From Nannobrachium achirus (taxonomy: Eukaryota > Chordata > Actinopteri > Myctophiformes > Myctophidae), in NCBI GenBank assembly GCA_963921795.1, contig OY997658.1:26589456-26653455 (forward strand): 64,000 nucleotides of DNA. Reading direction: 5' to 3'. Shown piece after piece: positions 13,522 to 59,294 of the stretch. How positions within the stretch are numbered: position 1 is the stretch's first letter; each line of letters opens with the position of its first letter. Position numbers and translations under genes: made by a program. Under the pieces are notes generated by a model. It had not been told where the DNA came from. It was given only the letters and a program-made list of their open reading frames with translations, and made no database searches.

Positions 13522-16500
13522 CCCCTCCCTCCCTCCCTCTTTGGAGAGCTGAGATAGACAGAAATTCTTTGCCACCTTGCACTTTTAATTGCCCGTGGTG
13601 ATTAATGACAGCAGCTGCTGTACTACTGGCAGAGAGTGTGATTGCCCGTGCCAAAGAGCTGTTTCCCATCACCTGCAAAATTAGGGCTCTGATATCTAGG
13701 TGTCTTCAATTGGTCTGTCGTCATTGGTCTGCTCTGTTGTACTAGTTCCTTTATTTGTCAGGGTTTGGTTTCCAAGTCCATTAATGCATGACAAAGGCTT
13801 GTACAGTACAAAGCAAAGGCTTTTTTCTGATAAATATTATGGGAAAGCTGAAATGTTTCATCATCACATCAGAGCTTCTGTACAGGGGCTCTTAATGCTG
13901 TAGGAAGCCAGCTCTAGACTTTTAGAGCAGTGGTTCTCAACCTATTTGGTCGGGATCCCCAGGGGGGTCCCCACATGGTTTTATTTATTTCATATAGGGA
14001 GAAGAAGTGATATGAATAATTCCATACTGCATCAAAAGTAATCAACAAACTATATTATAAAAACTGGTCAAGCATTGGTCAAATTTACGAATAATATAAT
14101 ACAGCAGATCTACAAGCACGTTGTGTGCTTGTAGATCTGCTGTTTTCACTAGTTTAGTACATTTTATAGATGACAAATACAAAACGAACGGTTTTGGACA
14201 TACAAGTTTTCCACCCGTCAACGACGATATGCTATAAATATAAGGTGCTGGGAGTGAAAATTGTAATGTAGGGGTGCCTCGGATTAAAAACATATTCACG
14301 GGGTGCCCTGAGACAAAAAGGTTTGGGAACCCCTGGATTAGGCATCGGTCTGTTAGGGAGGCGGAGCGATCTGTTATCAAGAAATAACACACCGCTGATT
14401 TCAGCGATCGACCAATCAGAATCAAGCGTTCAAACCGAGCCGCGTGATAACAGTGCGCTAACAGTGGCCTCTCTGCCCGCCGCCCCCAGCTCCGCGTCAA
14501 CCAGGACGAGCCCATGGAGGAGTACCTGGCCCAGCTGGAGGAGACGCAGGCCGGGGCGGAGGAGCTGCTCCTGGGGCCCGGCCTGCCCTGCAAGGAGCAG
14601 ATGAGGACCAACGTCATCAACGAGATCATGAGCACCGAGCGCGATTACATCAAGCACCTCAAAGACATCTGTGAGGTCAGTTGTCTGTTGGTTTCACTAA
14701 GTGTACATCAGGAATACAAGCAGTCCATTTAAGAGTCCATTTGAGAGAGGGTGGCTGCAGTCGGTAGCGCTGTCGCCTCACGGCTAGAAGGTCCTGGGTT
14801 TGATTCCCGCCGGGGGACGCTGGGGGCGTGTTCCCTCCTCCACGTCATCAGCGCCCACACCCTAGGTGGGGTTGGCGAAAGGGCCTTTCTGTGTGGAGTT
14901 TGCATGTTCTCCCCTAAACCCTAGGGAAGGTACCTCGTACCCTCACTAAAAACATGCAGTAATCCTGGTCTCTATAATGCCTCCACCGGGGCGCCTGATG
15001 GAGGGCAAAGGAACTAGTTGGAATAACATGTTCCTTCCATGCGCTATGTTCAACCGGGGAAGCGGCCTGTTCACTCCTCATGCACTGAAGGAAGCTTGAG
15101 CTCAGTTCAGGGCCCTTCCCAGGTTGGCAGAGGGAGAGCAGAGCCCAGGATTACTAGCCTGGTTCCAGTCCATAGACCCGCCCACTCTCAGAGTGGACTG
15201 TTTCTCTGGTCTGGAATTGTGTTCATAATAAGTGATTTCTGGAGCCGAAATGACGGCTCCTCCAATTAGCGCAGGGGGTGGGGGTGGGTTTAACAAATAA
15301 CCAATCCGTGCCGTCAAAGTCCCTCCCCTCCAGAAATCGCTCAAACAGGGCACAATGTCAGACTCAAGCTTCAGCTGAGTCTGAAATCAGGCTACAGGAT
15401 TACAGCTTAGGCACTTGGTTAAACATGGGTTACAGAATTGTGGGATAAAGATTTTAGAGATTTTAATTTAATTTTTTTTAGAGAGTCCATTTGAGAAAGG
15501 AGAATGTTGCAAGTGAAGTGAGTGTATTTAGTTTCTGCAAGCACAAAAAAGGAAATCACCAGAGGTATAGTGAAGATATATGGAGAGTCTACTGTACTGC
15601 AGTGTTTTCCCACACAGTCAGGCTCTAGTGAAGTCCCTTGTTTGATTCCCGGGCCGGCTGAACCATTTCCTAATGACAGGCATTCCTTCTCCCTAATATT
15701 GTATACCCATCAAAAGCTCAGAAAAAGCACAACAAATTTCACTACACATTGTGAGCTTATAGATCTTTCTTTCTTTCCTTTTTTCTAATTAGTGAAAGAA
15801 GTAGGGCATAAGCGGTTAAACGTTTTAATTTGGCAATGTGACAACACGTGCTATTGAGGCTATTCTGCATGGATATGAATACTGTAATACATACTGTATA
15901 CAGTGGGCCTTGATATTCTGACTCACCCTTTGGCAGTGATAGAAGACGTACTCACATGTTGTACTTACGTAAGTGAAAGTACCAATACCACCATGTAGAA
16001 ATCCGGTACTCAAAATTGACTCGAGTAAAAGTACAGAAGTATTCACATCCAAATATACTACTCCATTACTGAAAGTAAAAGTACTCATTTTGCAGAATGT
16101 CCCATTTCACAAGTTTCCCAAATGTATAAAAATGCTTTGAAAATGGCAGATCCTAACGAGGCGTGTTGGTTTGGTCATACCGCGACGCAGGGTTACATCA
16201 AGCAGTGTCGCAAGAGGACGGACATGTTCAACGAGGAGCAGCTGCGCACGATCTTCGGCAACATCGAGGACATCTACCGCTTCCAGAGGAAGTTCCTCAA
16301 AGGTCTGGAGAAGAGGTTCAACAAGGAGCAGCCGCACCTCAGTGAGATCGGCTGCTGCTTCCTGGAACATGTGAGCATACTTGGACATTTTCTCAACCCA
16401 TCTAGACCGGGAACGCATTATCACGCAATATTTTATGCTTTAACTATTAAAAGAATAGCAGATATGCAAGCTCACAGCGAGCTTGTAGATCTGTTATTTT

Positions 16501-18710
16501 TGGAAAATCGTGAACATTTGTGCAAGTCTTTGAATATTTTCACCCGATTCTATAAGTGTCTTCTAAATCCTTCTAATGTTTTAAAAAAAAAGCTATGTTT
16601 CTATGTCAGTGGTGCTCAAACCTTTTCATGTCAAAGACACCCAAAACAAAATATTTAGTTCCAGGGACCCCCAGAATAAATATTTTAGTTACAGATGTTC
16701 GCTTTAAAAATACATATATTCAAAAATGTGCACACATTTTCAAGGCTTTTCAAACATAGCAGATCTACAAGCTAGCAGCGCGGCGCTGTGAGCTTGTATC
16801 TGCTATTTTTCAATACTTTAAGCATAAAATAATTAAATAAGGAGTTTAGCTGATTCTTGTTTTGGAATCATTCCATATTGTATAAATCCTGTTGTTCTAT
16901 TTTAATGAAGTTCATCATGTCCAACATCATTAAAATAATACAGAACTTACTTGAATTATTGAGTCAATGTTTGCTTAACAACACCGCTGGCTAATCAGTC
17001 ACGTAGACCTATAGTTGATTTATTTAGATTTTTATATACAGTATATTTATTTTCCGGGACTGTTTTCGGTGACTTTTCAAATCAATCCACACAAGTGATA
17101 ACATAGCTTGCAAGCTGCAAGCTAATTTTCAACACTGTACTGAAATGAATGGAAAACAAAGTGATAAAAATCCCACACCACCCCTTTATATGGCCATGTG
17201 GTTAAAAACCCTTTGTCACCGACTGCCTGTCCCCCCGCCTCCATGATCCAGCAAACAGATTTCCAGATCTACTCGGAGTACTGCAACAACCACCCCAACG
17301 CCTGCATCCAGCTCTCCAAGCTCATGAAGGTCAACAAGTACGTGTTCTTCTTCGAGGCCTGCCGGCTGCTCCAGAAGATGATCGACATCTCGCTAGACGG
17401 CTTCCTGCTCACCCCTGTCCAAAAGATCTGCAAGTACCCGCTGCAGCTCGCCGAGCTGCTCAAATACACCAACCCGCAGCACAGGTGAGTCTCGTGGTTT
17501 TGCGTTCTCAGTCGCCCGCAACAGTTTTTATTTTATTTTTTAATACTTTATTTGCGGGTTTATACAATACCTGTTATTCATTTCATCCATAGTAGCTCAC
17601 AATTTTTCTTCACTTATTTAATACATCCTGCATTTCTTTATTTTTTTAATGTACAAACAGAAATTAATACAAAAAGAAAAAGGAAAAGGGGAGGTAGAGT
17701 AGAATTAAAGCAGAAATAAGCAGTTTTCTGCTGACAGGAATCATGCAATTGCTTATTTTTATTTTTTATTTGTATTTTATTATATTCAGGCGGCTAACAA
17801 TGCTCCATAAAAAAGGTCTCTATGGTGCCTCTAGGAGCCGCAGTCTACCTCCAAAACTATTATTTCATCTGTAAGAAGCTCTGTCATTAGCAGCTCATTG
17901 GTGCATGAACCAGCCGACCGGGGCTAAACGGATTGACAGACAGGTCAACCAATCTGAACAAGAACAAGAGGCGGTCCTGATTGATCTGTTATTTTGGATG
18001 GGCACCCAGTTTAATCGACCAATGACAGAACTTCTCATAGATAAAAATAATAGTTTTAGAGGCAGATTGTAGCCCCAGGAAGTGTCACACACACAACATT
18101 TCTTTAGGAAGCATTGTTAGCCGCCTGAATACAATAAAATTAAAAACATTTTTTTTAAATAAGCAATTGCATGATTCCTGCTTATGTCAGCAGAAAACTG
18201 CTTATTTCTGCTTTAAGAGAGAGAAAAAATAATAAAAGGGGGTGGATAGCTTTTATGTATGCCCCTAAAAATACTTTAACCCTTCATGTACCATTTCTGA
18301 GACCCATTTACTCCAGTTTCTTTGAAACTCATCTTCACGGTTTCTCATTTTGTAAGTAATTCTTTCCATCTCATTAATCTCTTCAACTGTTATTTTCCAA
18401 TTGTTACTAGATGGTGGCTTTGCATCCAACCATTTGCGTGTGATTTGTTTTAAAGCAGATTCGTAATATTGTATACAGAGCCCACGACTGATGTGAGTCA
18501 TTTGGATTCCGTAGAAGTCAGCATGTCTTTTGTGGAAGCATGTTGCGCAGCCGCAGCGAAAGTAGCCTATCTACAAGCTCTAAATGCTTGTACACTACTT
18601 ACGTGGATTATTTTAGGTCAAACCAGCAAATTATGCTCAGAAGCATCTTCTATAAAACCCTAATGGTCTTTAGGTATTTTTATTTTTGAGCGGTGGTCAC
18701 AACGTGCTCC

Positions 18711-20644: not shown

Positions 20645-23600
20645 CGTGCGCGCAGGGTGAAGACGTGCTCAGTAAGAGCTCTGACCTGATCTTCTCTGGA
20701 GAGCTGACCAAGCTCTCCCAGCCCCAAGGCAAGAGTCAGCAGAGAATGTTCTTCCTCTTCGACCATCAGATGGTCTACTGCAAAAAGGTGAGTCAGAATG
20801 TCTTCATATTCAGCAGCCAGTGTTGGCCAAGTTACTTTCACATTTGAAAGTAATAGACTTTACAATATTGACTTTCTGTGTATTATGGCACTTATTACAC
20901 TACGTTTGTGACTTTCAAAAAAACCATACAAAATTAAATAACCGAGGCAGTATGACTTGGCCCTTTTGAAATGGAAGAGGGATAATGTTCCATAGCTGGT
21001 AACCTAAGCACAACAGCTCACATTTATTGCGGTATATTATATCGATGCTGCATTCTTCTTGTGCAATATGTACCGGTAGGTAGGCCTATTAGCAGATGTA
21101 GAAAAAGTACTCACATTCTTTACTTAAAGGGGAAGACCACCCCCATTTTCAATATTGAACTATGTCATTAATATACCTTAGAGGAGTTGTGTGGAAATAG
21201 AAAAAAAAGTTCCCCCCCTTCTGTGTTGCCTAGAACTGGAGGATTGATTTTGGGGTTTGTATTGTAAAGTGATGTAATCACATTGTACTTTGCAATACAA
21301 ACCCCAAAATCAAGCTTGTAGATCTGCTATTTTTAAATAGCTAAAGTATAAAATAATTCCAGGTCTTAATGGGTTAATGGTGCATTTTGGAGCACCACAT
21401 ATGCCGTAGCAACATAGGTTTTTTTTAAACCATGGGTCTCCCATTCCGGCTCGCAGGACCTTCTGAGGCGGGACATGCTGTACTACAAGGGCCGCGTGGA
21501 CATGGACCAGATGGAGGTGGTGGATGTGGAGGACGGCAAGGAGCGAGACTTCAACGTCAGCGTGAAGAACGCCCTGAAGCTGAAGCTGCGCTCGCCCGCC
21601 GGCGAGGAGGTGCACCTGCTGTGCGCCAAGAAGCCCGAGCAGAAGCAGCGCTGGCTGAGGGCCTTCTCTGACGAGAGGAGACAGGTCCAGCACGACCGCG
21701 AGACAGGTCAGGATTAACCCATTTAGAACATTATAGTGTATCATTATTGTATGCTTTAACTATTGAAAAATAGCAGATATACAAGCTCACAGCGCGGCAC
21801 CGAGTGCCGCGCTGCGAGCTTGTAGATCTGCTATTTTTGAAAAATCGTGGAAAATTTTAATTTTGACCCGATTCTATAAGTGTCTTTTGAATCCTTCTAA
21901 GATTTTTTGAAAAACCTATGTTTCTATATGTCAGCAATCTGGCTATAGCCATCATCAAAGAAAAGGTCCTTTTCAAAAAAATCGTCAAATCCATTCTCAC
22001 ATAATTTGGGTAAAATCTGGTTACGGATCTCGCTCTTTAGAGCCTAGAGCTGTGAAAGAATATTTGATATACGAATATTCCTTTGAATGTTAACAATAAA
22101 AGAATATTCTAAAGTTAATTAATTAATTAAAAAAAATCTGCCGTACTTCTCGCGAGATTCTGGGCGCATGTAACATTAAAAGGTGGCTGGTCTCGCGAGG
22201 CAGAAGTCTCCATTCGCCGCTGCAAAAGTGGGCTGATCTACAAGTCCACAATGCGTCGCTGATCCAATACGTTGTGGGCTTGTAGATTAAGGGTGCATGT
22301 TTAGCGACACCGTCATTCAGCGAAGAATAAACCTCCAGCTGCTTAACTTTCTCTTCACACTGACCGTCGTCCGCCTAGCAGACACAGTGCTTTGCCTCTG
22401 AGTTAAACTTGCTCACGTTTAATCACACAATATAAATTTAATTGATTCAGAATGATAACGAGTCAAGCTGAAACGGGCGACTCATTTGGTAGTGACGGGA
22501 AGGCAGACTGTTTACAACGAGACTTCTCCACCGAAAACACAATGTAAAAAAGCATGGATTTCTTCTCTCACCGAGTCTCCCCGCACGCAGCCACGGTCAC
22601 GGTAAAACTCCCTCCGTCACACTACTCTTGTAGACTACCTAATTTGGTTCAAACCAAAACATAATCCATTGGTGTGATTATAATTGCTCGTTTCATGTCG
22701 TGGCTGTTCCAACTGCCATCACAGCTGCTGTTACGCTTCGCATCGACGATGCGATGCTGCTCTTGCCTTTACCAACGCCATAGATAGAAGCGACTGTCTA
22801 GAATAAACAGCTTCAGGGGGGTCGTGAACGTCGCCTAATACAGGTCTATTGATATGCATATAGGCTCGTCGGGGGCGCGACCGCAACAATGGCTGTATTG
22901 GTGTGATTATAACGTGTAAAAAAAAAAAAAGCTCCGAAGCTCCGAAGTGCGAATGCTTCGAATTTTTTGAATTATTCAAATTATTCAAATTTATTCGAAT
23001 CAACGATGGATTTTAAAGGGAATATTCGAATGCCATTTTTGGCAAATTTTGACAGGCCTACAGCCCGGTCCTCCTAAAACACAATAAGGTTTTGCAATAT
23101 AATAAGCCTGAGTCCGACACCAAATTAATGTCATTTCTCTCTGACGTCACTTTATTAATCCCCAATTTGATCTTTCTTTGTCTACGGTTTGGACTTTATT
23201 CCCAATAGAAGGAAAAGAAATATCACATTTGTTAGCATTTTTTTTTAATGAAAACAATATTTTTGAAACAATGTATTCCTGAAAATCTTCGATGCGACAC
23301 ATTGACACTATTAGGGATGTTCGATATTATCGGCCTCCCGATATTATCGGCAGATATAGTAGCATAAAAAAAACTATATCGGAAAATATGTTGCTATTTT
23401 ATCTCGACAAAAAAGAATCAACTTGTTTGTTTTACCGTCTGTTGCACATCTGTGAGGTCTGAACTGAATAATAAGTTGTATTTCGCTATGCATCGTGTAC
23501 ACATAAACCACTCCCCCTTCATTAACAACATGTATTACATTAGATTTATTCGATATTTATGTTAGATATTATGTTGATATTATAGCTATTTTATTGTATT

Positions 23601-28400: not shown

Positions 28401-30362
28401 CGCAAAGTAAAGCTCTGCTTCATCAGACAAGGCTGTCGCACAACAGTAGTGAAAACAGCAGATCTACAAGCACACAACGCCTCGCGCCGCGAGGCATTGT
28501 CGGCTGTTTTCAGGGACCCTTCTCAGGGGCACACCAAAGGTCCCCAGGCACAGTGGTTGAGAAACACTGACATAACGGGATTGCACTGACAATGATCATT
28601 TAGTAGCTACTCGCTCGCCTCGCATGTTTCTGGGTTCTATCCTGGGGCATGAGTAGTAGGGATCGGATGATATGAAAATGTCATGTCACGATTATTGTGA
28701 CCAAAGATATTGCGATTTACGATATTGCGATAATCAAAATATCCACAACATCCATTATCCTGGCGCGGAACGTTTGCCAGCAGATCTACAAGCTCACAGC
28801 GCATCACGCTGCGACACCTTGTGAACTTGTAGATCGGCTATTCTTTGGCAAAGAGATTTGATAGAGAGTGAAAAAAGACTATTTCTACCAACCACTTTTT
28901 GTGGTCACATGGGTTAGATACTGGATTCTGATTGGCTTAAAACAGTGGTAAATCAGTCAACAACCTTGAGTTGGCTCATGGACCCCGCCCACTGTTGTGT
29001 TGCAGTTGTATAACTAAATAACCTTGCAAGTTACAACTGTGTTTTCTTTCATTTATATGGTAGAAGTGTTAGAAAAGCAATTTACCATTCGAGGGTCGTG
29101 GGTTGTTTGAAACAGTGGTAAATCAGCCAACAACCCACTCCCTCTCATGGTAAATGGCTTACATCAAGTATGTTATTTCCAGGTCCGTTTTACCAATTAA
29201 GAGGGTTTAAATGTTACCGGATATGTGTGGCGGAGAGAGTCGCAGCCCCAGCCTGAAGCCTCAAAATTCTAGTATCTGCTCTCGTTCCATAGGGATCTCC
29301 CTTTGGAGTAATGGTTAAGATATTGGACTTTCACGCGGGAGACCCGGGTTCGAAGCAGGGTGGGGAGGTTCGGATCACCTCCGTTACATTGGTGCCGTGA
29401 CCCGGATTCGGGCTTCCCCGTAGGAGGAGGTCAAAGGGGGGTGAGTGTGGCGGAGAGAGTCGCAGCCCCAGCCTGAAGCCTCAAAAGTCTAGTATCTGCT
29501 CTCGTTCCATAGGGATATCCCTTTGGAGTAATGGTTAAGATATTGGACTTTCACGCGGGAGACCCGGGTTCGAAACCGGGTGGGGAGGTCCGGATCACCT
29601 CCGTGACATATGCAGCTTGGCAAATAAAAGGTGAATTGATCCCAGTGCATGACGGAGGATAATTTCACCATACATTTTAATCTTATTTTGAAAAATTAAT
29701 TCATTTTAAAATAATAATAATTAAAACAAAACATTGGAAACACAAAATAAAGGGATATTTACTCACGACCCATATAAATGGGTCCATGACCCAAAAATAG
29801 GTCCTGTCCCACCGTTTGGGAAACAGTGTTCTAGCTGTTAACTCGTCCAGTGCCACCACTAGATGGAGCCCAACTCCTGCTCAATGGCCGAGATATGGTA
29901 GCCTGATAAATCAGTCCGCACATCACCACCCCCTGTTGGTGGGTGGTGTGTAGTGTGGACTGAACCCGGAGATATTTTATTTTATTTCAAGCTCGCCTAA
30001 AGAGGGGCGCATTGAATGGGCCAATCAGGGCTGTAGACTTGAGGCACGTGGTAGGCTGGTCCGGTCCCAGCCCCCTCCCTTCGGAGCTGTTCTGCCCACG
30101 TGAGAGTCCGTAGTGGACTCTGATTGGTGCTCTTCTGCCCACGTGAGCCGCTAGTGGACTCTGATTGGTCCGTGAAAACTGTCATGGCGGAGTCAGACTC
30201 GACTCGAATTCTTTTAATAAACTATACAATAGTGCCATTTCATTACGTTTTAATACCATTTTGCACTAACGTAAACATGCAGTCATATAATATGTTATGA
30301 GAAATAACGTATTTTTGCAATGTCACGCCACGTCGCCGTCGGCGACACACGGGGCTGTGTGT

Positions 30363-33046: not shown

Positions 33047-33545
33047 CAGGGGCGTCACACCAAATTCTGGGCCCCGGGTACAAGGATTCACTGTGGGGCC
33101 CCTGTGCTTTAACTATTGAAAAATAGCAGATATACAAGCTCACAGCGCGGCACCGAGTGCCGCGCTGCGAGCTTGTAGATCTGCTATTTTTGAAAAATCG
33201 TGAAAATGTGTGCCAAGAAACCTGTTTCCATGTCAGTGATGCTCAAACTTTTTCATGTGAAGGACCCCCCCCCCCCCCCCCATCTCAAAATATTTAGTTC
33301 CAGGGACTCCCCAGAAGCAACATTTTTGTTACAAATGTTCACTAAAAAAATACATAGATTCAAAGATTTGCGCACATTTTCACGACTTTTCAAAAATAGC
33401 AGATCTACAAGCTCGCAGCGCGGCACTCGGTGCCGCGCTGTGAGCTTGTATATCTGCTATTTTTCAATAGCTAAAGTTACTAGGGCCCCTCCACCTTGGG
33501 CCCTGGTAACTCAGTCCCACTTTCCTACCCCTTGTGACGCCCATG
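33047..33545. mobile_element. hAT MITE (CAGGGGCGTCAC family) in the arhgef4 3' UTR
   Basis: The ends are CAGGGGCGTCAC and GTGACGCCCATG. The 8-bp duplication tgcaggac is perfect (33039-33046 and 33546-33553). Two hairpins lie at about 33121-33191 and 33397-33472. The copy aligns end to end with 9016-9498. Confidence 0.93.
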
Positions 33546-39259: not shown

Positions 39260-39645
39260 TGGTGTTTGCGTGCCTGAACTATTTGCATATCCAGCAACTG
39301 CAGGAAAAGGTGGTACACTGCTTGTGCAGTGGACAGCAGAGCACACAGGCAAGGGGACATCACGGGTCAAGGTCTGATTGCAAATAGTATCTCTAATATT
39401 ATGTGTGTTAAAATAATATTATTGTAGAGCTGTTGTAATTAGTATTATGTTGTAGAGGCGTTTTGATTATTATAACGATGTGTTTTCATTACGATTATGT
39501 TGTAGAAGGGTTTTGATTAATATTACTTTACTATTCAAAGTGTCGCTTATCACAATGTTCACTGTCCCTCTGTATTTTTTCCATCCTTTGTTCATTTGCC
39601 GGTCTCTCCAAAAGACAGCGCACTCAAATCAAAGCTGGCAGGAAG
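39260..39645 (+). promoter_or_regulatory. conserved 5' leader of the first GPCR copy
   Basis: This flank aligns with those before the copies at 48774 and 58479 (GAACTATTTGCAT, GGACAGCAGAGCACACAG, then repeats of TTATGTTGTAGARGNGTTTTGATTA). It ends in a pyrimidine-rich tract reading into CTCCAAAAG, a plausible acceptor for a 5' UTR intron. Promoter or leader function is inferred from conservation only. Confidence 0.5.
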
Positions 39646-40425
39646 ATGAACACATCAAATGAGTCCTCCATCTACAGCAACGTGGACATTTTACGCATCA
39701 CCAGCACAACAATCAACCTGGTCCTGGGAGTCCCCATCAACAGCTGGGTTCTGTGGCTGGTATTAACCGGACCAGCTGGTACAATGGCCTCAGAGATCTT
39801 CACACTCAATCTGAGTGTATGTGAGATCATCTTCAGCTTGTTATTTCTTTCCCTTGCTATCAAGCCAATTCTCCTCTTTGAAACATTCACTAATGGTTTC
39901 CTGTTCACCGGCCGTCCGCTCTTCCAGAGCTGTATCTGCGTAGAGAGATTCATGGCAGTGGTTCACCCAGTGCTCTTCCTCAAGTACAAACCCCTCAGGT
40001 ACAGGGTGGCTTGCTCTGCGTTGGCCTGGTTGGTCATCATTGGGACATCACTATTGTACATGCTGTTGGGTCCTTCCATGATATTGTTGTATGTTCATCT
40101 GGGCAAATGCCTATTTTTCATGATAGTGATGCTGTTCTGCAGCCTCGCCGTTCTCAGGGTTCTGAAACAGCCCATGCCAGGGGAGATGGGGAGGGAGAGG
40201 GACAACAGCATGAAGAAGAGAGCCTTCACTATCATCTGCATTATGATGGTGTCATTTTTGGGAACTTACTTTATTTGGTGCATTATTCTCATTTTGGCCA
40301 GTCAAGGACAATTGTTAGATGAAATGGATTTAGTTGACGAAATATGTATGTTCTTTGCTGTGGTCGCTGGGTTTGTTCAGCCACTGCTGTACCTCTGCCA
40401 AAAGACTGGCAAACTGCCCTGTTAA
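39646..40425 (+). CDS. intronless rhodopsin-like GPCR, copy 1 (C-terminally shortened)
   Basis: 259 codons in one exon. Two N-glycosylation sequons open the protein (MNTSNES). Hydrophobic segments fit seven helices: TM1 about 21-42 (GVPINSWVLWL, N1.50 at 32), TM2 52-75 (NLSVCE, with E60 where most receptors have D2.50), a shortened TM3 ending ERF (R101), TM4 119-140, TM5, TM6, and TM7 with VQPLLYL in place of NPxxY. From E60 to R101 is 41 residues, about ten fewer than usual, and the common TM3 cysteine is absent. A two-base loss after CCCTGT relative to the other copies brings TAA early, removing the final VKPIQGT. It resembles an uncharacterised teleost class A receptor group; ligand unknown. 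The upstream AAAGCTGGCAGGAAG context and homology support this ATG. Confidence 0.82.
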   Translation: MNTSNESSIYSNVDILRITSTTINLVLGVPINSWVLWLVLTGPAGTMASEIFTLNLSVCEIIFSLLFLSLAIKPILLFETFTNGFLFTGRPLFQSCICVERFMAVVHPVLFLKYKPLRYRVACSALAWLVIIGTSLLYMLLGPSMILLYVHLGKCLFFMIVMLFCSLAVLRVLKQPMPGEMGRERDNSMKKRAFTIICIMMVSFLGTYFIWCIILILASQGQLLDEMDLVDEICMFFAVVAGFVQPLLYLCQKTGKLPC

Positions 40426-41509: not shown

Positions 41510-42038
41510 CTTACTTTTACTTCTACTCCACTACATCTCGGATCCAAGTATTGTACTTTTACTCCACTACAATTATTTGAAAACTATAGTCACTAATTAC
41601 TTTGCAGATGTACATTATTATATTATAAAACATACAGTAGGCCTACATTAATCCACTTTAGTAGAAATTAAATTACTTTAGTAGAAATTAATTCGGGCCT
41701 TGCAGGGTTAAGTACTTATTGATGCCAATACTTTTATACTTTAAGGGTGCCCTCACACCAAAATACCCATGAGAGTGGAATCCGCGTTCCGCCAATGCAT
41801 TTCAATGAGAAGGGAGTGTTTTTTTTGCAGAAATCCTCTGCTGGCATGAAACCGCTTCACTCTCATTGAAATGCATTGGCGGAACGCGGATTCCACTCTC
41901 ATAGGTATTTTGGTGTGAGGGCACCCTTACGCAAGTACATTTTGAATTCCGTACTTCTACTCGTAACAGAGTATTTCTACATTACAGTATTGATACTTTT
42001 ACTTAAGTAAAACATCTGAGTACTTTTTCCACCACTGC
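41510..42038. mobile_element. dispersed GTACTTTTACT-type fish repeat with nested MITE
   Basis: The outer sequence (TACTTTTACTTCTACTCCAC near 41510; AGTACTTTTTCCACCACTGC near 42018) is a repeat also seen in pieces at about 15935, 21095, 46443 and 47330. A palindromic insert occupies 41744-41927. Confidence 0.6.
41744..41927. mobile_element. 184-bp palindromic MITE with TA duplication
   Basis: The ends are AGGGTGCCCTCACACC and GGTGTGAGGGCACCCT, with TA on each side (41742-41743, 41928-41929). The arms extend about 75 bp (GAATCCGCGTTCCGCCAATG). TA targets suggest a Tc1/mariner-like source. Confidence 0.83.
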
Positions 42039-42044
42039 CTGCAT

Positions 42045-42046
<2 letters not shown>

Positions 42047-42111
<65 letters not shown>
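42047..42111. repeat. (TC)n microsatellite at the LINE 5' junction
   Basis: A pure TC run of about 64 bases immediately before the first recognisable LINE codons. A TC run also follows the LINE 3' tail (about 44657-44672), which may be target-flank sequence on both sides. Confidence 0.95.
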
Positions 42112-42112
<1 letters not shown>

Positions 42113-43434
42113 AAATACATAAGTCCAAAGCTGACGGCCACAAAACAGTTGAAGCTAGAAACCTCAAAACCTACTCTAGCGAAGCCTTTAATCACAAACT
42201 GGAGAAATCTGACTGGTCCCCAGTACTAGCTAGCACTCAGGTCGATGAAGCCTGGCTGGGCTTTAAATCCATTTTCAACACTACCCTAGACGAAGTGGCT
42301 CCTTTGCGTAGGGTCAGGGTTAAAGCCCGCTCACAGCCATGGTGGAATTCGGAAATCTGTGAATCAATGAAACTCAGAGACAAAAAATACTCTGAGAAAC
42401 GCAAATATAATCACAAACTCAAAAAAGGCCCCAATAAACACCTTGAAGCCAAATTAGAAATAGTCAGTTTAGAGGCTAATAAACTGAGAAATCGGACAAC
42501 CTCCTTAATCCTTTCTGCCAAAAAACACTACTTGGATGAGAAAGTTGAGGAAAACATCCACAAACCACGAGACCTATGGAAGCTATTTAAAACCCAGCTA
42601 GGCTGTGGTGCTAAACTTAGATCCATAGCCAGCAACATATCCATCCAAACTCCCATAACCCTCCTCACTGACAGTCTCGATGTAGCCAAAAATCTCAACA
42701 TCTATTTCACCTCCATGGCCAAAAATCTGGTCAATAAACTGCCCGCTCCATCTGGGCTGTTTGGTGTTAGGCACATCTTGAAATTCTACAGGAACCTTGG
42801 GGTATGCAAAGACAATTTTAAACTTACCACGGTGACAACTGATGAAGTGTTTAAAAAACTTCGCACCCTACCTCAATTCAAGGCCGCTGGCCATGATAAA
42901 ATCGCCCCCAAATTTCTCATAGACTCAGCTGCCACCATTGCCCCAATCATTACCCATATTATTAATCTATCTATCAAGCAGGGTTATGTCCCCCAGGACT
43001 TCAAATTAGCTAAGGTAACCCCCCTGCACAAAAAAGGCAGTAAACTTGACCCTGGCAACTACAGGCCAATCTCAATCCTTAGTTCCATCTCTAAGGTAAT
43101 GGAAAAAATTGTCTATGAACAGGTGGCTAAATATCTTGAAGAGAATAAACTGATCTACGAGTTCCAGTCTGGCTTCAGAGAGTCCCATTCCACAGATACA
43201 TGCCTCATCTATTTGAATGATTACATCAAACGTGAAATTCACGATGGCAAATATTGCGGCATGGTCATGCTGGACCTCCAGAAGGCATTTGACACCGTCG
43301 ATCATTCTATTCTGATCGAAAAACTCAAAGCTATTGGTCTTGATAGCACAGCAGTGAGATGGATGCACTCTTACTTGGTGGGGAGGGAACAGATGGTGGA
43401 AGTCAACGGAACCCTGTCCCCCCCCTCCCAGTAA
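42112..43434 (+). pseudogene. LINE reverse transcriptase, N-terminal part (frameshifted)
   Basis: About 440 codons. The visible RT blocks are VTPLHKKGSKLDPGNYRPIS, VMEKIVYEQVAKYL, FQSGFRESHSTDTCL and the block A sequence VMLDLQKAFDTVDHSIL, with its catalytic aspartate. The frame ends just after a C-homopolymer near 43420-43428, where the next frame takes over at VNCGVPQGS. A one-base slip in the C run is the simplest explanation. The region before about residue 60 is the linker downstream of the missing endonuclease. Confidence 0.85.
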
Positions 43435-43902
43435 ACTGTGGAGTACCTCAAGGGAGTATACTAGGACCACTGTTGTTCTTAATATACGTAAACGACATGT
43501 CATCTGCTTGTGACTGCAATCTGTTTCTGTTCGCGGATGACTCGGCTCTCCTAGTCTCCGGCAGAGACTTATTGCAGGTTGAAAAGGCCCTTAACTGTGA
43601 ACTAAACAAGATCTGCACCTGGCTCAATGACAACAGACTCTCAATTCACCTAGGCAAAACTGAATGTATCCTCTTTGGATCTAGTCAGAAACTTAGCCTA
43701 GTTGAGAACTTCACAATTAAAGACACTGTGATAGAAAGAAAAAACTACATCTGCTACCTGGGTTGCATCCTGGAGGCTAACCTATCCAGTGAAAAAATGA
43801 CCACCAAGGTCATCAATAAAGTCAACCAACGAATTCGCTTCTTGCAAAGGGTTGCCCCGCTGATCAATACTAAATCCCGAAAGACACTAGGAGGAGCTCT
43901 TA
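43430..43902 (+). pseudogene. LINE reverse transcriptase, catalytic C-terminal part (second frame)
   Basis: It continues with block B, GVPQGSILGPLLFLIYVNDM, and the catalytic block C, FLFADDSALL, followed by the thumb-like region ending RKTLGGALIG. The FADD aspartates are intact. The frame is lost again near 43900. The sister fragment at 2504-2640 has a DYGVHVWYCDAP-like sequence here, so this copy also appears to lack a few codons. Confidence 0.83.
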
Positions 43903-44367
43903 TTGGGCCCCTCAGTCCTTGTCTGGTATCGCGACGCCCCAGCCGCCTTAAAGTTAAAGCTTCAAACAGCCCAAAACAAACTAATTAGGGTTGTGCTTGG
44001 TCTCCCTCCTCTGACCCACCTTACCGATCATCACCACGAAAGCGTGGGATGGCTCAAAGTAGCTGACAGAGTACAGCATCTTGCAATGGGCCTGGTGTAC
44101 AAGATACACTACACCTCCAAGATTCCCATGTACCTGACAAACTACTTCTTAAAGGTCAAGGATGTTCACGACCACAACACCAGAGGCAGCTCCACGAATC
44201 ATCATCAACGTAGATTTAACACTAAACAAGGCTCTAACTCGTTCTCCTGCTACACCATCAACATGTGGAACGCCCTTCCTCAAGCCCTAAAGGAGAGCAA
44301 ATCCCTAGCCTCCTTCAAAATTGGTATGAAAAGTCACCTTCAGACAGCTGCTACCCGTGACTTGTAA
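43903..44367 (+). pseudogene. LINE ORF2 C-terminal domain (third frame)
   Basis: It encodes VWYRDAPAALKLKLQTAQNK through KDVHDHNTRGSS, GSNSFSCYTINMWNALPQAL and SLASFKIGMKSHLQTAATRDL, then TAA. It is the reference copy for the two antisense fragments near the window start. Confidence 0.83.
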
Positions 44368-48149: not shown

Positions 48150-48773
48150 TGATAGTTTCCTACATTAGTGTGATGATGGATGGACACTGATTGATGCTAT
48201 ATGAGAACTATTTGCATTTTAGCCACTGCAACAGCTGGTACTGCTTCATGACTGTGACTGACATTGTGTTGATGATTGGTGTGAACATTGATGGCCTGTC
48301 ATAATAATGACAACTATTTGCGTATGTCCAGCCACTGCAGAACATTAATAATTAAACAACATTGGTACATTGCATGTGTGGACAGCAGAGCACACAGAGA
48401 AGAGGACATCAAAGGCCAAGGTCTGATGGCAAATATTATATCTAATATTATGTGTTTTGATAAGTACCGTATAATATTGTAGAGGTGTATTGATTCATTT
48501 TAGGTTGTAGAGGGGTTTTGATTAATATAGGTAGAGGGGTTTTAATTAGTATTGTGTTGTAGAGGCGTTTTGATTAATATATTATGTAGAGGGGTTTTGA
48601 TTCACATTGTGTTCTAGTGGTGCTCTGATTAATATTATGTTGTAGAGGGGTCGCTTATAACGATGTTCTGTGTCTCTCTGTCTTTTACTCTCCTTCCTTT
48701 GGCGGTCTCACCAAAAGACTTTGCAGGATTGTGAAAAGAGAGACAGCGCACTCAAATCAAAGCTGCCAGGAAG
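48150..48773 (+). promoter_or_regulatory. GPCR copy 2 leader with minisatellite-like repeats
   Basis: Five to six imperfect units of about 28-35 bases (TTATGTTGTAGAGGGGTTTTGATTA consensus pieces) cover 48470-48655. They are followed by a pyrimidine tract, CACCAAAAG, and the CAAAGCTGCCAGGAAG start context. Upstream pieces (GAACTATTTGCAT) occur twice, at about 48208 and 48308. Confidence 0.5.
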
Positions 48774-49583
48774 ATGAACACATCAAATGAGTCCTCCATC
48801 TACAGCAACGTGGACATTGTACAAATCTCCAGCACAACAATCAACCTGGTCCTGGGAGTCCCCATCAACAGCTGGGTTCTGTGGCTGGTATTAACCGGAC
48901 CAGCTGGTATGGCCTCAGAGATCTTCACACTCAATCTGAGTGTATGTGAGATCATCTTCAGCTTGTTATTTCTTCCCCTTGTTATCAAGCCAATTCCCCT
49001 GTTTGGAACATTCGTTTATGCTTTCCTGTTAACTGGACGTCCGCTCTTCCAGAGCTGTATCTGCGTAGAGAGATTCATGGCAGTGGTTCACCCAGTGCTC
49101 TTCCTCAAGTACAAACCCCTCAGGTACAGGGTGGCTTGCTCTGCGCTGGCCTGGTTGGTCATCATCGCGGTTTCACTATTATATATGTTATTACACGTCC
49201 TGTTTGGTAACAGTAAGAAGATATTGTGTTATGTTTATTTGGGTGAATTCCTATTCTTTATGTCAGTGATGCTGTTCTGCAGCCTCGCCGTTCTCAGGGT
49301 TCTGAAACAGCCCATGCCAGGGGAGATGGGGAGGGAGAGGGAGAGGGACAACGGCATGAAGAGGAGAGCCTTCATTATCATCTGTCTGATCATGGGGTCA
49401 TTTTTAGGAAGTTTCTTAATTTGGTGCATCTTTCTCATTTTCGCCATTGAAGGAATTGACCTTGATTTACTTTTAATTATATCTATGTTAATTACTGTGG
49501 TCACTGGGTTTGTTCAGCCACTGCTGTACCTCTACCAAAAGACTGGCACATTGCCCTGTGTTAAACCTATACAAGGTACATAG
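48774..49583 (+). CDS. intronless rhodopsin-like GPCR, copy 2
   Basis: 269 codons. The N-terminus MNTSNESSIYSNVDI has two N-glycosylation sequons. Helices: TM1 (INLVLGVPINSWVLWLVL), TM2 (LNLSVCEIIFSLLFL), short TM3 ending SCICVERFMAVVHP, TM4 (ACSALAWLVIIAVSLLYML), TM5 (FLFFMSVMLFCSLAVLRVL), TM6 (IIICLIMGSFLGSFLIW), TM7 (ITVVTGFVQPLLYLYQ). An extracellular-loop-2 cysteine (KKILCYVYLG) remains although the TM3 partner is missing. One codon (Thr) is lost relative to copies 1 and 3 after GPAG. Intracellular loop 3 is basic (MGRERERDNGMKRR), as usual for G-protein coupling. The C-tail is very short (TGTLPCVKPIQGT). No disabling change was seen. Confidence 0.86.
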   Translation: MNTSNESSIYSNVDIVQISSTTINLVLGVPINSWVLWLVLTGPAGMASEIFTLNLSVCEIIFSLLFLPLVIKPIPLFGTFVYAFLLTGRPLFQSCICVERFMAVVHPVLFLKYKPLRYRVACSALAWLVIIAVSLLYMLLHVLFGNSKKILCYVYLGEFLFFMSVMLFCSLAVLRVLKQPMPGEMGRERERDNGMKRRAFIIICLIMGSFLGSFLIWCIFLIFAIEGIDLDLLLIISMLITVVTGFVQPLLYLYQKTGTLPCVKPIQGT

Positions 49584-49937: not shown

Positions 49938-50135
49938 AGTAAGCCTTACCGAGCCTTGAGACCCATAGGGCAGGAGCCTATCCCCTGTTTCTGTACACGC
50001 TTGGATATGATGCTAGTATGGAGGCACTGGGTCCCATTTTTCAGTGTCTTTGGTATGACCCGGCTGGGGATCGAAGCCCGACCTCCAGGTCTCAGGGTGG
50101 ACACTCTAACCACAAGGCCAATGAACTGGTCATGA
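49938..50135 (-). mobile_element. tRNA-derived SINE, antisense
   Basis: On the minus strand the head reads GTGGTTAGAGTGTCCACCCT, followed by the B-box region GGGCTTCGATCCCC. The body ends near AGGCTCGGTAAGGC. The duplicate is at 59665-59895; it keeps about 30 bases that this copy lacks. Confidence 0.75.
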
Positions 50136-51302
50136 ACAGTGAACACAGTACTACGGTAGCCTAATGACTGCCGTCCTCAGTCTCTTTTATCAATTGTTTG
50201 TTCAGTTGCTAAATGTTATACTGCTATGCCACCATGTGCCAACGTATGCCACTTGTTGTGGCACTCTGAATTATGTTTTATACTGTAAAACACTTAGAAT
50301 TGCCTCGATGTATGAAAAGTGCTGTATAGATAAAGTTGCCTTGCCTTGCCTACATAATCTACACTGTACACATCACCCATCTGGGCATTGGCAGACAAAG
50401 GGACAGGGCTTAACATATCTTACATTAACAATGCTTTCATGTGAAAATAATGTTGTGTCCTGTAATGTGTCAACAACACTATCTCACCTGGGATACATTG
50501 GCAACTATATTCACCCACTGTAGGACATGAAATACATTATGGAATTTTAGAAAATAATGTTTAGAAAAGAATAACAATCACATGTGGCCTTGATGCTTGT
50601 TTGACGTTCTGGCTATTAGTGTTTTCCTCTTTGAGGGCACAGTGATAAGCTAAAGTATATCATTCTGTTTCTGCATGCACACACTTTACTCCTGAAATTC
50701 ACTGATTTGTCCAGTAGGTGGTAGTATTGTACTGTACCATGTAATGCAGTTGTGTTGTACAGTACCTGTCAGGCCCTTCATGTGCGAACAAGTGTCGTCA
50801 TACCTGTAAGCAGGGCCCAAACTCATCTACAACCACAGCACCACCCACCCCAGCTGTAACAATGGAAATCTCAAATAAGCTCTTTTTAGCCTTGTAGTCT
50901 TTCAATACAGTGACTGGGACTATATGGCTGTGATCTTTTACATTATGTAACAGTCATATTAAAATATGAATATTATTTCTGGTCTCGTTCTTGCGAGTTC
51001 TAATAATTATTTAGATGCAGCACATCCACAAAAGAATGTAGAGTGAGTGAGGAGTTGATAAAACAGAGGAAAAGTATAACATGTATTTGAATCTTTTCAT
51101 GCGCTTCTATTTCCTGTTTTAATGGCCCTATATTTATTATGGGAGTGACTGCCCCAATTTCAGCCACAATGATAACGTTAATGAATTTATTTATACTGTA
51201 CAGCAGATTTCCATACATAGTCACAAAGTGCTCTACAGAGCTGGGGTAAAAGAGAAACATGATAAGCATTTAGGGAAAAACAGCAAAAACTACAACAAAA
51301 GA

Positions 51303-58085: not shown

Positions 58086-58478
58086 CAGAGTTTTCACATT
58101 GTGTTGTTTTGTCATGTTCATCCATCATGAGAACTGTCAGAATATGAGAACTATTTGCATTTCCAGCCACCACTGAACATTAAAAGGTGCTATACTGCAT
58201 GTGTGGACAGCAGAGCACACAGAGAAGACGACTCCACTGCAGGGCAAAAAGGTTTGATTGCAAAGGTTACAAGATTATGCATTTTGAGTTATATTTTGTA
58301 GTTGATTTAGTATTATGTTGTAGTGGAATTTTCATTAGCATTATGTTTTAGAGGTGTTCTGATTATAGCATTATGTTAGAGATGTTTTGCTAATCAAAGT
58401 GTTTATTATTTGTCTTTTCATTTGTCTGTCTCCCCATAAGACTGAATTGTGAAAAGCGTGTTCAAAGCTGGCAGGAAG
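58086..58478 (+). promoter_or_regulatory. GPCR copy 3 leader
   Basis: GAACTATTTGCATTTCCAGC, GGACAGCAGAGCACACAGAG and four imperfect TTATGTTNTAGAGNTGTT-type units (58300-58390) correspond to the other leaders. It ends with TCTGTCTCCCCATAAG and the AAAGCTGGCAGGAAG start context. Confidence 0.5.
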
Positions 58479-59294
58479 ATGAACACATCAAATGAGTCCG
58501 TCATCTACAGCAACGTGGACATTGTACAAATCTCCAGCACAACAGTCAGCCTGGACCTGGGAGTCCCCATCAACAGCTGGGTTCTGTGGCTGGTGTTAAC
58601 CGGACCAGCTGGTACAATGGCCTCAGACATCTTCACACTCAATCTGAGTGTATGTGAGATCATCTTCAGCTTGTTATTGCTTCCCCTTGTTATCAAGCCA
58701 ATTCCCCTGTTTGAAACATTTGTTACTGTTTTCCTGTTACATGGACGTCCTGTCTTCCAGAGCTGTATCTGCGTAGAGAGATTCATGGCAGTGGTTCACC
58801 CAGTGCTCTTCCTCAAGTACAAACCCCTCAGGTACAGGGTGGCTTGCTCTGCGTTGGCCTGGTTGGTCATCATCGCGGTTTCACTATTATATATGTTATT
58901 ATACGTCCTGTTTGGTAACCGTATTAACAAGATATTGTGTTATGTTTATTTGGGTGAATGCCTATTTTTCATGTCAGTGATGCTGTTCTGCAGCCTTGCC
59001 GTTCTCAGGGTTCTGAAACAGCCCATGCCAGGGGAGATGGGGAGGGAGAGGGAGAGGGACAACGGCATGAAGAAGAGAGCCTTCATTATCATCTGTCTGA
59101 TCATGGTGTTATTTTTAGGACGTTTCTTGATTTGGTGCATCGTTCTCATTTTTGCCATTGAAGGAGTTGACTGTGATTTACCTTCAATTATATCTATGTT
59201 TATTACTGTGGTCACTGGGTTAGTTCAGCCACTTCTGTACCTCTGCCAAAAGACTGGCAAATTGCCCTGTGTTAAACCTATACAAGGTACGTAG
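58479..59294 (+). CDS. intronless rhodopsin-like GPCR, copy 3
   Basis: 271 codons from the ATG at 58479, chosen because it matches the start of the other copies; an in-frame GTG 30 bases upstream has no support. The topology is as in copy 2. N1.50 is N32, NLSVCE ends in E60 at the D2.50 position, and R101 lies in ERF. TM6 lacks the usual CWxP and TM7 reads GLVQPLLYLCQ in place of NPxxY. Copy-specific changes cluster in TM1 (VSLDLGVP, an aspartate in the helix) and in the TM2-TM3 region (TVFLLHGRPVFQ), which would face ligand. ECL2 has NRINKILCYV. The tail is KLPCVKPIQGT. No disabling lesion was found; ligand and coupling are unknown. Confidence 0.86.
   Translation: MNTSNESVIYSNVDIVQISSTTVSLDLGVPINSWVLWLVLTGPAGTMASDIFTLNLSVCEIIFSLLLLPLVIKPIPLFETFVTVFLLHGRPVFQSCICVERFMAVVHPVLFLKYKPLRYRVACSALAWLVIIAVSLLYMLLYVLFGNRINKILCYVYLGECLFFMSVMLFCSLAVLRVLKQPMPGEMGRERERDNGMKKRAFIIICLIMVLFLGRFLIWCIVLIFAIEGVDCDLPSIISMFITVVTGLVQPLLYLCQKTGKLPCVKPIQGT

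Follow-up and report, generated by a model that had tools for sequence, protein, structure and literature searches.

Can a vertebrate LTR element that carries no gene of its own be transcribed from tRNA-like sequence within its LTRs? This question is raised by a gene-less element of 383 bp at positions 29226-29608 of the window, which is the whole stretch of 64,000 nucleotides of DNA analysed here. A first-pass annotation had described the element as a TRIM with RNA polymerase III (Pol III) boxes in both LTRs and had known of no described vertebrate example.

Anatomy of the element and its primer-binding site

The two 163-bp repeats with TG...CA ends, the 57-bp interior and the polypurine tract (PPT) were found exactly where that annotation had placed them, and the 4-bp target duplication that it had called perfect is TATG on both flanks. 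The features of the element, with the basis of each assignment in brackets, are as follows:

29222..29225, no strand: target-site duplication TATG, left copy (flank comparison)
29226..29388, plus strand: 5' LTR, 163 bp, TG...CA (direct sequence comparison)
29298..29367, plus strand: tRNA-like stretch of the 5' LTR (local alignment to tRNAs)
29304..29314, plus strand: A-box-like TGGAGTAATGG of the 5' LTR (off the TRGYNNARNNG consensus)
29347..29357, plus strand: B-box-like GGTTCGAAGCA of the 5' LTR (sequence)
29389..29445, plus strand: interior, 57 bp (gap between both LTRs)
29390..29410, plus strand: primer-binding site, PBS (21/21 complementary to a host tRNA-His-type 3' end plus CCA)
29433..29445, plus strand: PPT AAAGGGGGGTGAG (adjoins the 3' LTR)
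29446..29608, plus strand: 3' LTR, 163 bp, TG...CA (direct sequence comparison)
29518..29587, plus strand: tRNA-like stretch of the 3' LTR (local alignment to tRNAs)
29524..29534, plus strand: A-box-like TGGAGTAATGG of the 3' LTR (sequence)
29567..29577, plus strand: B-box-like GGTTCGAAACC of the 3' LTR (sequence)
29609..29612, no strand: target-site duplication TATG, right copy (flank comparison)

The two LTRs differ at 6 of 163 positions (3.7%). Within the interior, a 1-base spacer is followed by the PBS, and the PPT AAAGGGGGGTGAG occupies the far end. With 383 bp and a short non-coding interior, the element falls within the size limit of TRIMs (<1000 bp). The motifs TATA[AT]A, AATAAA and ATTAAA do not occur inside the element and its right end bears no A-rich tail; an AATAAA is located 15 bases past the 3' LTR, in the right flank of the window's copy. 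An A box and a B box of the sequence ggttcgaaacc, 43 bases apart, had been assigned to each LTR. This B box is present in the 3' LTR, whereas the 5' LTR reads ggttcgaagca and differs at two positions; the spacing of 43 bases applies only from start to start (LTR positions 79 and 122).

The PBS had been matched to tRNA-His at 19 of 20 bases. The tRNA type is correct and the fit is closer, all 21 bases being complementary to the tRNA-His-type 3' end of the host genome plus CCA; human tRNA-His gives one mismatch. Twelve places of the host genome match a 22-base tRNA-His 3' end, and all 12 carry G, not A, at the position that was allowed to vary. At one of these places the match is to the reverse strand of a TRIM copy (L069); the remaining 11 are known by their 3' end alone. 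A search with a 24-mer of the PBS (at most 2 mismatches) yielded three places, namely L070, which is the place of L059/L062, and L069 and L071, which carry TRIM LTRs. The exact PBS 18-mer with T occurs at eight places, six of which belong to the family of the window's TRIM; the others are L065 and L067.

L065, on its minus strand, contains a 41-bp interior with a tRNA-His PBS, which is located at 1501 when the locus is reversed. This interior is enclosed by two LTRs, 138 and 133 bp long and 74% identical over 129 columns, and the 4-bp flanks agree in 3 of 4 bases. The LTRs align with those of the window with scores of 66 and 70, compared to shuffle maxima of 28 and 30, and GGTTCAAA of L065 aligns with the window's B box. 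Judged from these alignments, L065 is a second, older TRIM and a diverged relative of the window's element. For L067, alignment gave no relation to the window's LTR (score 30, shuffle maximum 32); this locus contains one sub-threshold tRNA match, on the strand opposite to its PBS.

Several other features were noted in the window. Palindromic repeats of 69 nt whose long arms are complementary form a family (D7) that occupies 13 places, for example 21769-21837 and 33122-33190, and is like a small hairpin transposon. GPCR-like open frames are found in duplicated blocks at 39517-40425, 48735-49583 and 58446-59294. The first two match Pfam 7tm_1; the third is as long as the second and is part of a block that repeats the second at 9.7 kb spacing. 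A reverse transcriptase remnant extends across two frames at 42007-43988 (Pfam RVT_1), and a RhoGEF-like exon is located at 16029-16658, its best PDB match being Rho guanine nucleotide exchange factor 4.

Copies in the host genome

The element recurs genome-wide, both as intact copies and as solo LTRs. The 383-bp query gave at least 44 matches in the 1.66-Gb host genome, 40 of 2,400 first-look candidates having been scored. A conserved 23-base LTR mark occurs at 2,136 places and a 21-base interior mark containing the PPT at 894 places (at most 2 mismatches; controls 0 and 2, respectively). Since the two marks differ in conservation, their ratio of 2.4 gives no more than a rough indication of solo LTRs. 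Exact-pattern scans for the element in viral contigs and in other genome contigs gave 0 matches each.

The fetched loci were chosen in different ways. L001-L030 are the best matches to the window's copy and therefore favour its subfamily. Exact matches to the PBS numbered 165, and the first 30 of them make up L031-L060. L072-L111 represent 40 of the 100 interior places that were listed, taken from C1 and C2; because places already fetched were left out, this set favours copies in which the PBS context is changed. The 20 regions L112-L131 come from 100 listed LTR places and were picked mostly without a nearby second exact match, so that their share of solo LTRs is uninformative on the genome.

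The 71 loci L001-L071, some of which overlap, contained 51 complete two-LTR groups, and 28 were contained in the 40 interior-fetched loci L072-L111. Of the 39 gaps between LTRs in the interior-fetched sample, 30 measured 57 bp. After all fetched loci had been pooled and duplicates dropped, 78 distinct complete two-LTR copies were obtained. Perfect 4-bp duplications flank 55 of them; 8 copies show one mismatch, 10 show two or more, and 5 are without recognisable TG...CA ends. A shuffled-flank control among the 73 copies with TG...CA ends yielded 8.6% perfect duplications. The duplicated sequence shows a preference for T/C-A-T-A/G. The TRIM reading of the first-pass annotation is thus borne out by the sampled copies, which keep the order LTR-57 bp-LTR with PBS and PPT and mostly have 4-bp duplications; copies lacking PBS and PPT or the duplications as a rule were not seen in the samples.

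Pooling also gave 16 complete single LTRs. Five of these adjoin an interior and therefore represent half elements. Among the 11 true solo LTRs, six have a perfect duplication, two have one mismatch, two have two mismatches, and one is without TG...CA ends. The perfect duplications of six of the 11 are as predicted by LTR recombination. Tandem arrays of the type LTR-interior-LTR-interior-LTR are found at L005 (4 LTRs), L008 and L020/L021, and in each case the duplication flanks the array as a whole; at L005 and L008 it is TATA within TA-rich flanks and is weak. Only these arrays are named because the count of groups with three LTRs includes split matches (L056). In addition, a fold-back copy was observed around 1400-1700 of L034, in which inverted LTR and interior halves are arranged around a doubled PBS. 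It is perhaps an aberrant reverse-transcription product.

Tandem arrays, small size and tRNA-like sequence would also fit a SINE-like unit that was tandemly duplicated and spread by LINE machinery and is not a true LTR element. Such an origin is, however, at odds with the 21-base PBS, the PPT and the TG...CA ends, with an interior of 57 bp in most sampled copies, with 4-bp duplications that also flank solo LTRs, and with a right end that bears no A-rich tail. The SINE dimer was rejected on the basis of PBS, PPT and 4-bp duplications and is extremely improbable.

The LTR pairs of 74 of the 78 two-LTR copies could be compared. Their median divergence is 3.1% for 47 copies from L001-L071 and 4.9% for 27 copies from L072-L131. 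Eight pairs are identical, seven from the former loci and one from the latter. Low divergence and identical pairs indicate that the family was active fairly recently. The window's copy, with a divergence of 3.7%, is of intermediate age among the sampled copies.

tRNA likeness, promoter boxes and transcription

In local alignments with 23 tRNA genes, both LTRs reached a best score of 51; the maxima of 100 shuffles per LTR were 32 (5' LTR) and 35 (3' LTR). When 1,596 scan windows on both strands were compared with 14 tRNAs, the four best, with scores of 49-51, were all located on the element, and the maximum of a reversed-tRNA control was 34; the likeness therefore exceeds what chance would give. 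The 3' LTR was aligned with tRNA-Asp over the whole tRNA (LTR positions 73-142, score 50). The isoacceptor source is ambiguous, as Gln, Val, Asp and Glu lie within a few points. The tRNA-like stretch is present in both subfamilies of the element, with mean scores of 48.4 (27 LTRs) and 48.1 (64 LTRs). Within the window, all occurrences of a 19-mer of the B box (at most 3 mismatches) fall in the two LTRs; shuffled sequences contained none.

The first-pass annotation had named a tRNA covariance model as a check on the segment between the boxes. This check was negative: neither the Rfam tRNA model nor ARAGORN gave a tRNA match in the element. For this reason a functional tRNA was rejected, and the tRNA-like stretch is considered a promoter-like remnant that cannot be recognised as a tRNA gene. 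Two more tRNA-like stretches of the window, at 50050-50140 (minus strand) and at about 14745-14815 (plus strand), have scores of 48 and 43, compared to the control maximum of 34, and look like parts of tRNA-derived SINEs.

The conservation of the boxes was determined for 91 different full-length LTRs, which come from 65 loci. For the A-box stretch of 11 bases, the mean majority frequency is 0.871 and the rank is 126th of 153 windows; for the B-box stretch, the values are 0.918 and 108th of 153. The whole LTR has a mean of 0.940, and the segment that separates the boxes has one of 0.954. Both the A and the B consensus are fitted by four of the 91 LTRs. The variation of the boxes is mostly found between two subfamilies. 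In the main subfamily (60 LTRs, including the window's copy), 57 LTRs contain TGGAGTRATGG, which is off the A consensus, and 53 contain GGTTCGA. The minor subfamily comprises 29 LTRs, all from L031-L071; 24 contain TGGTCTAGTGG and 21 have GTAC in place of GTTC. In the sample that was fetched by means of the PPT and LTR marks, the A consensus is fitted by 9 of 82 LTRs and the B consensus by 46, and GGTTC[AG]A is present in 64. Box B contains a CpG, which is prone to decay. Sense T4 runs are absent from the element; of 200 LTRs, 9 contain T4, and no interior does.

The promoter that the first-pass annotation had proposed is therefore supported with respect to the tRNA-like sequence in the LTRs, but not with respect to its boxes, which are less conserved than the average LTR position and rarely fit both consensuses. 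A lack of box conservation across copies, which according to that annotation would refute the Pol III idea, is thus observed in part. The box data neither prove nor exclude a Pol III promoter, and box conservation does not favour it. Judged from its sequence, the stretch is a candidate promoter, and Pol III transcription of the element, which would be the mark of a TRIMp3, is unproven.

The reading that we consider likely as a whole is that of a Pol III-transcribed TRIM, which is primed by tRNA-His and depends on enzymes provided in trans by an autonomous element. Transcription by Pol III would begin in the 5' LTR, immediately before the A-box-like site, continue through the interior and the 3' LTR, and stop at T-runs in the flank. 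The read-through is expected because the element contains no sense T4 terminator, and it would result in an RNA with the same sequence at both ends. tRNA-His would then anneal over 21 nt and prime the minus strand, whereas the plus strand would be primed by the PPT. Reverse transcriptase and integrase would be contributed in trans by an autonomous element, which is probably of the Gypsy type and makes a 4-bp stagger cut. Later recombination between LTRs would lead to solo LTRs or arrays.

Alternatively, a TRIM of the same anatomy might be transcribed by RNA polymerase II (Pol II) or by transcription that runs in from adjacent genes, and the tRNA stretch might be the fossil of an old SINE insertion that has no promoter role today. 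The below-average conservation of the box stretches and the small number of LTRs that fit both consensuses agree with this alternative, as does the result that no tRNA fold was matched in the element; moreover, the AATAAA in the right flank of the window's copy could be used by a Pol II transcript. Against it stand the element itself, which contains neither TATA[AT]A nor a polyadenylation signal, the 191 of 200 LTRs without a sense T4 stop, the occurrence of the tRNA-like stretch at nearly equal scores in both subfamilies, and the frequency of GGTTC[AG]A. Transcription by Pol II or from neighbouring genes is considered somewhat unlikely.

As a partner, the first-pass annotation had envisaged a full-length element with the same LTR ends and the same tRNA-His PBS; for animal Helenus elements, mobilisation is expected from a Gypsy element with a similar PBS. 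A PBS pattern chosen so as to exclude the TRIM matched eight places, and at three of these it is followed by GACA. In one of them, L132 (55-241), TACAT and the 18-base PBS are common with the TRIM and precede a different leader and an ATG. Three copies that are nearly identical contain both the leader and the start of the frame, and 13 more contain the first 60-97 bases at 84-90%; L132-type PBS copies are located at C24:29736299, C5:57491285 and C20:7303634. The open frame of the three copies extends over no more than 90-114 aa. No element with a demonstrated reverse transcriptase, the L132 family included, was linked to the PBS of the TRIM. The link between L132 and the TRIM is weak, because 18 of the 23 common bases are the PBS, which is expected of any tRNA-His-primed element of the host. 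The search for a partner thus provided a candidate with a common LTR/PBS junction and a tRNA-His PBS, but one with a short frame; the L132 family is a weakly supported candidate for the LTR-element partner.

Origin and relation to known elements

According to Kojima 2024 (PMC10886601), TRIMs with tRNA-derived sequence in their LTRs are named Helenus, and the hosts listed are coelacanth, sterlet, paddlefish, zebrafish and other Ostariophysi. The same paper states that animal Helenus elements have 4-bp duplications and that their primers in vertebrates are tRNA-His, -Leu or -Lys. Zebrafish LTR-11_DR is listed with 5,575 LTRs, 2,618 interiors and tandem arrays (PMC10886601). Box A contains TRGCY and YGG and box B contains GGTTC in most animal Helenus families. 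Transcription by Pol III is deemed likely but unproven for Helenus, and Cassandra is the sole such group for which it has been shown (PMC10886601). Helenus is mentioned again in a 2026 meeting report (PMC12859917). Vertebrate examples, of which the first-pass annotation had known none, have thus been described, since Kojima 2024 reports the class from zebrafish and from other fish. The interpretation was correct as to the type of element, and this type was already published in 2024. Among the matches listed from the open literature, as far as these were accessible, there was no further vertebrate case; four strings of the element were not found in the open full-text literature.

An independent, previously undescribed invention would imply a host outside the orders of Kojima's table and a tRNA stretch that was gained separately. 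In line with such an origin, five segments of a P2X-like host gene on C12 are 56-71% identical to a P2X4 chain of the PDB, with a weighted identity of 63.7%; the corresponding value for human is 66.8% over the same segments. We take this chain to be that of zebrafish, and the P2X4 of a cyprinid is expected to be far closer to it. The host is therefore unlikely to be a close relative of zebrafish, and it is probably not a cyprinid. However, the matched exons may belong to a paralogue, the comparison comprises one gene only, and a sixth, overlapping exon (50%) is outside the mean. The host is regarded as a fish on the strength of the first-pass annotation and of general properties of the genome. 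Furthermore, divergent fish hosts are already listed in Kojima's work. An independent origin is thus quite unlikely, and no range extension is claimed for Helenus because a P2X paralogue could mislead. It is also unlikely that all of the following holds together: a still-active, Pol III-transcribed TRIM lineage in a fish not closely related to zebrafish and outside the reported Helenus orders, with two subfamilies that have an almost fixed 57-bp interior but a different canonical box, and which is driven by a low-copy LTR element with a common tRNA-His PBS junction.

The element combines LTR-type replication with SINE-like promoter sequence in an abundant, fairly recently active mini-retrotransposon of a 1.66-Gb fish-like genome. 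As its vertebrate copies include some with identical LTRs, a direct test of Pol III transcription in an animal would be possible, and the subfamilies with their complementary box defects offer a natural promoter comparison.

The element resembles tRNA-derived SINEs in its small size and in A and B boxes that stem from a tRNA; however, SINEs are not known to have LTRs, PBS, PPT or integrase-made 4-bp duplications. Cassandra of plants is likewise a TRIM with a Pol III-type promoter sequence in the LTR, but this sequence is 5S rRNA. No match to a 5S rRNA family is listed for the element or for eight loci, and a Cassandra-like 5S promoter was rejected for this reason. Ajax of nemerteans is also a TRIM with small-RNA-derived LTR sequence; according to PMC10886601, it is 5S-derived and has 5-bp duplications, in contrast to the tRNA-like sequence and the 4 bp found here. 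The likeness to Helenus includes a tRNA-like stretch in both LTRs, PBS, PPT, 4-bp duplications and a tRNA-His primer. The length of 383 bp lies within the animal range of 311-1263 bp (PMC10886601), and nothing points to a functional tRNA in either. With LTR-11_DR the element has in common that its LTRs number in the thousands and that tandem arrays occur, and very recent copies are reported for goldfish Helenus (PMC10886601). A difference exists in the A box, where YGG is present but TRGCY is replaced by TGGAG or TGGTC, TGGAG being that of the main subfamily. By these structural features, the element is a TRIM of the Helenus kind. It is well suited to the study of Pol III-driven LTR retrotransposition in vertebrates and does not represent a new kind of system.
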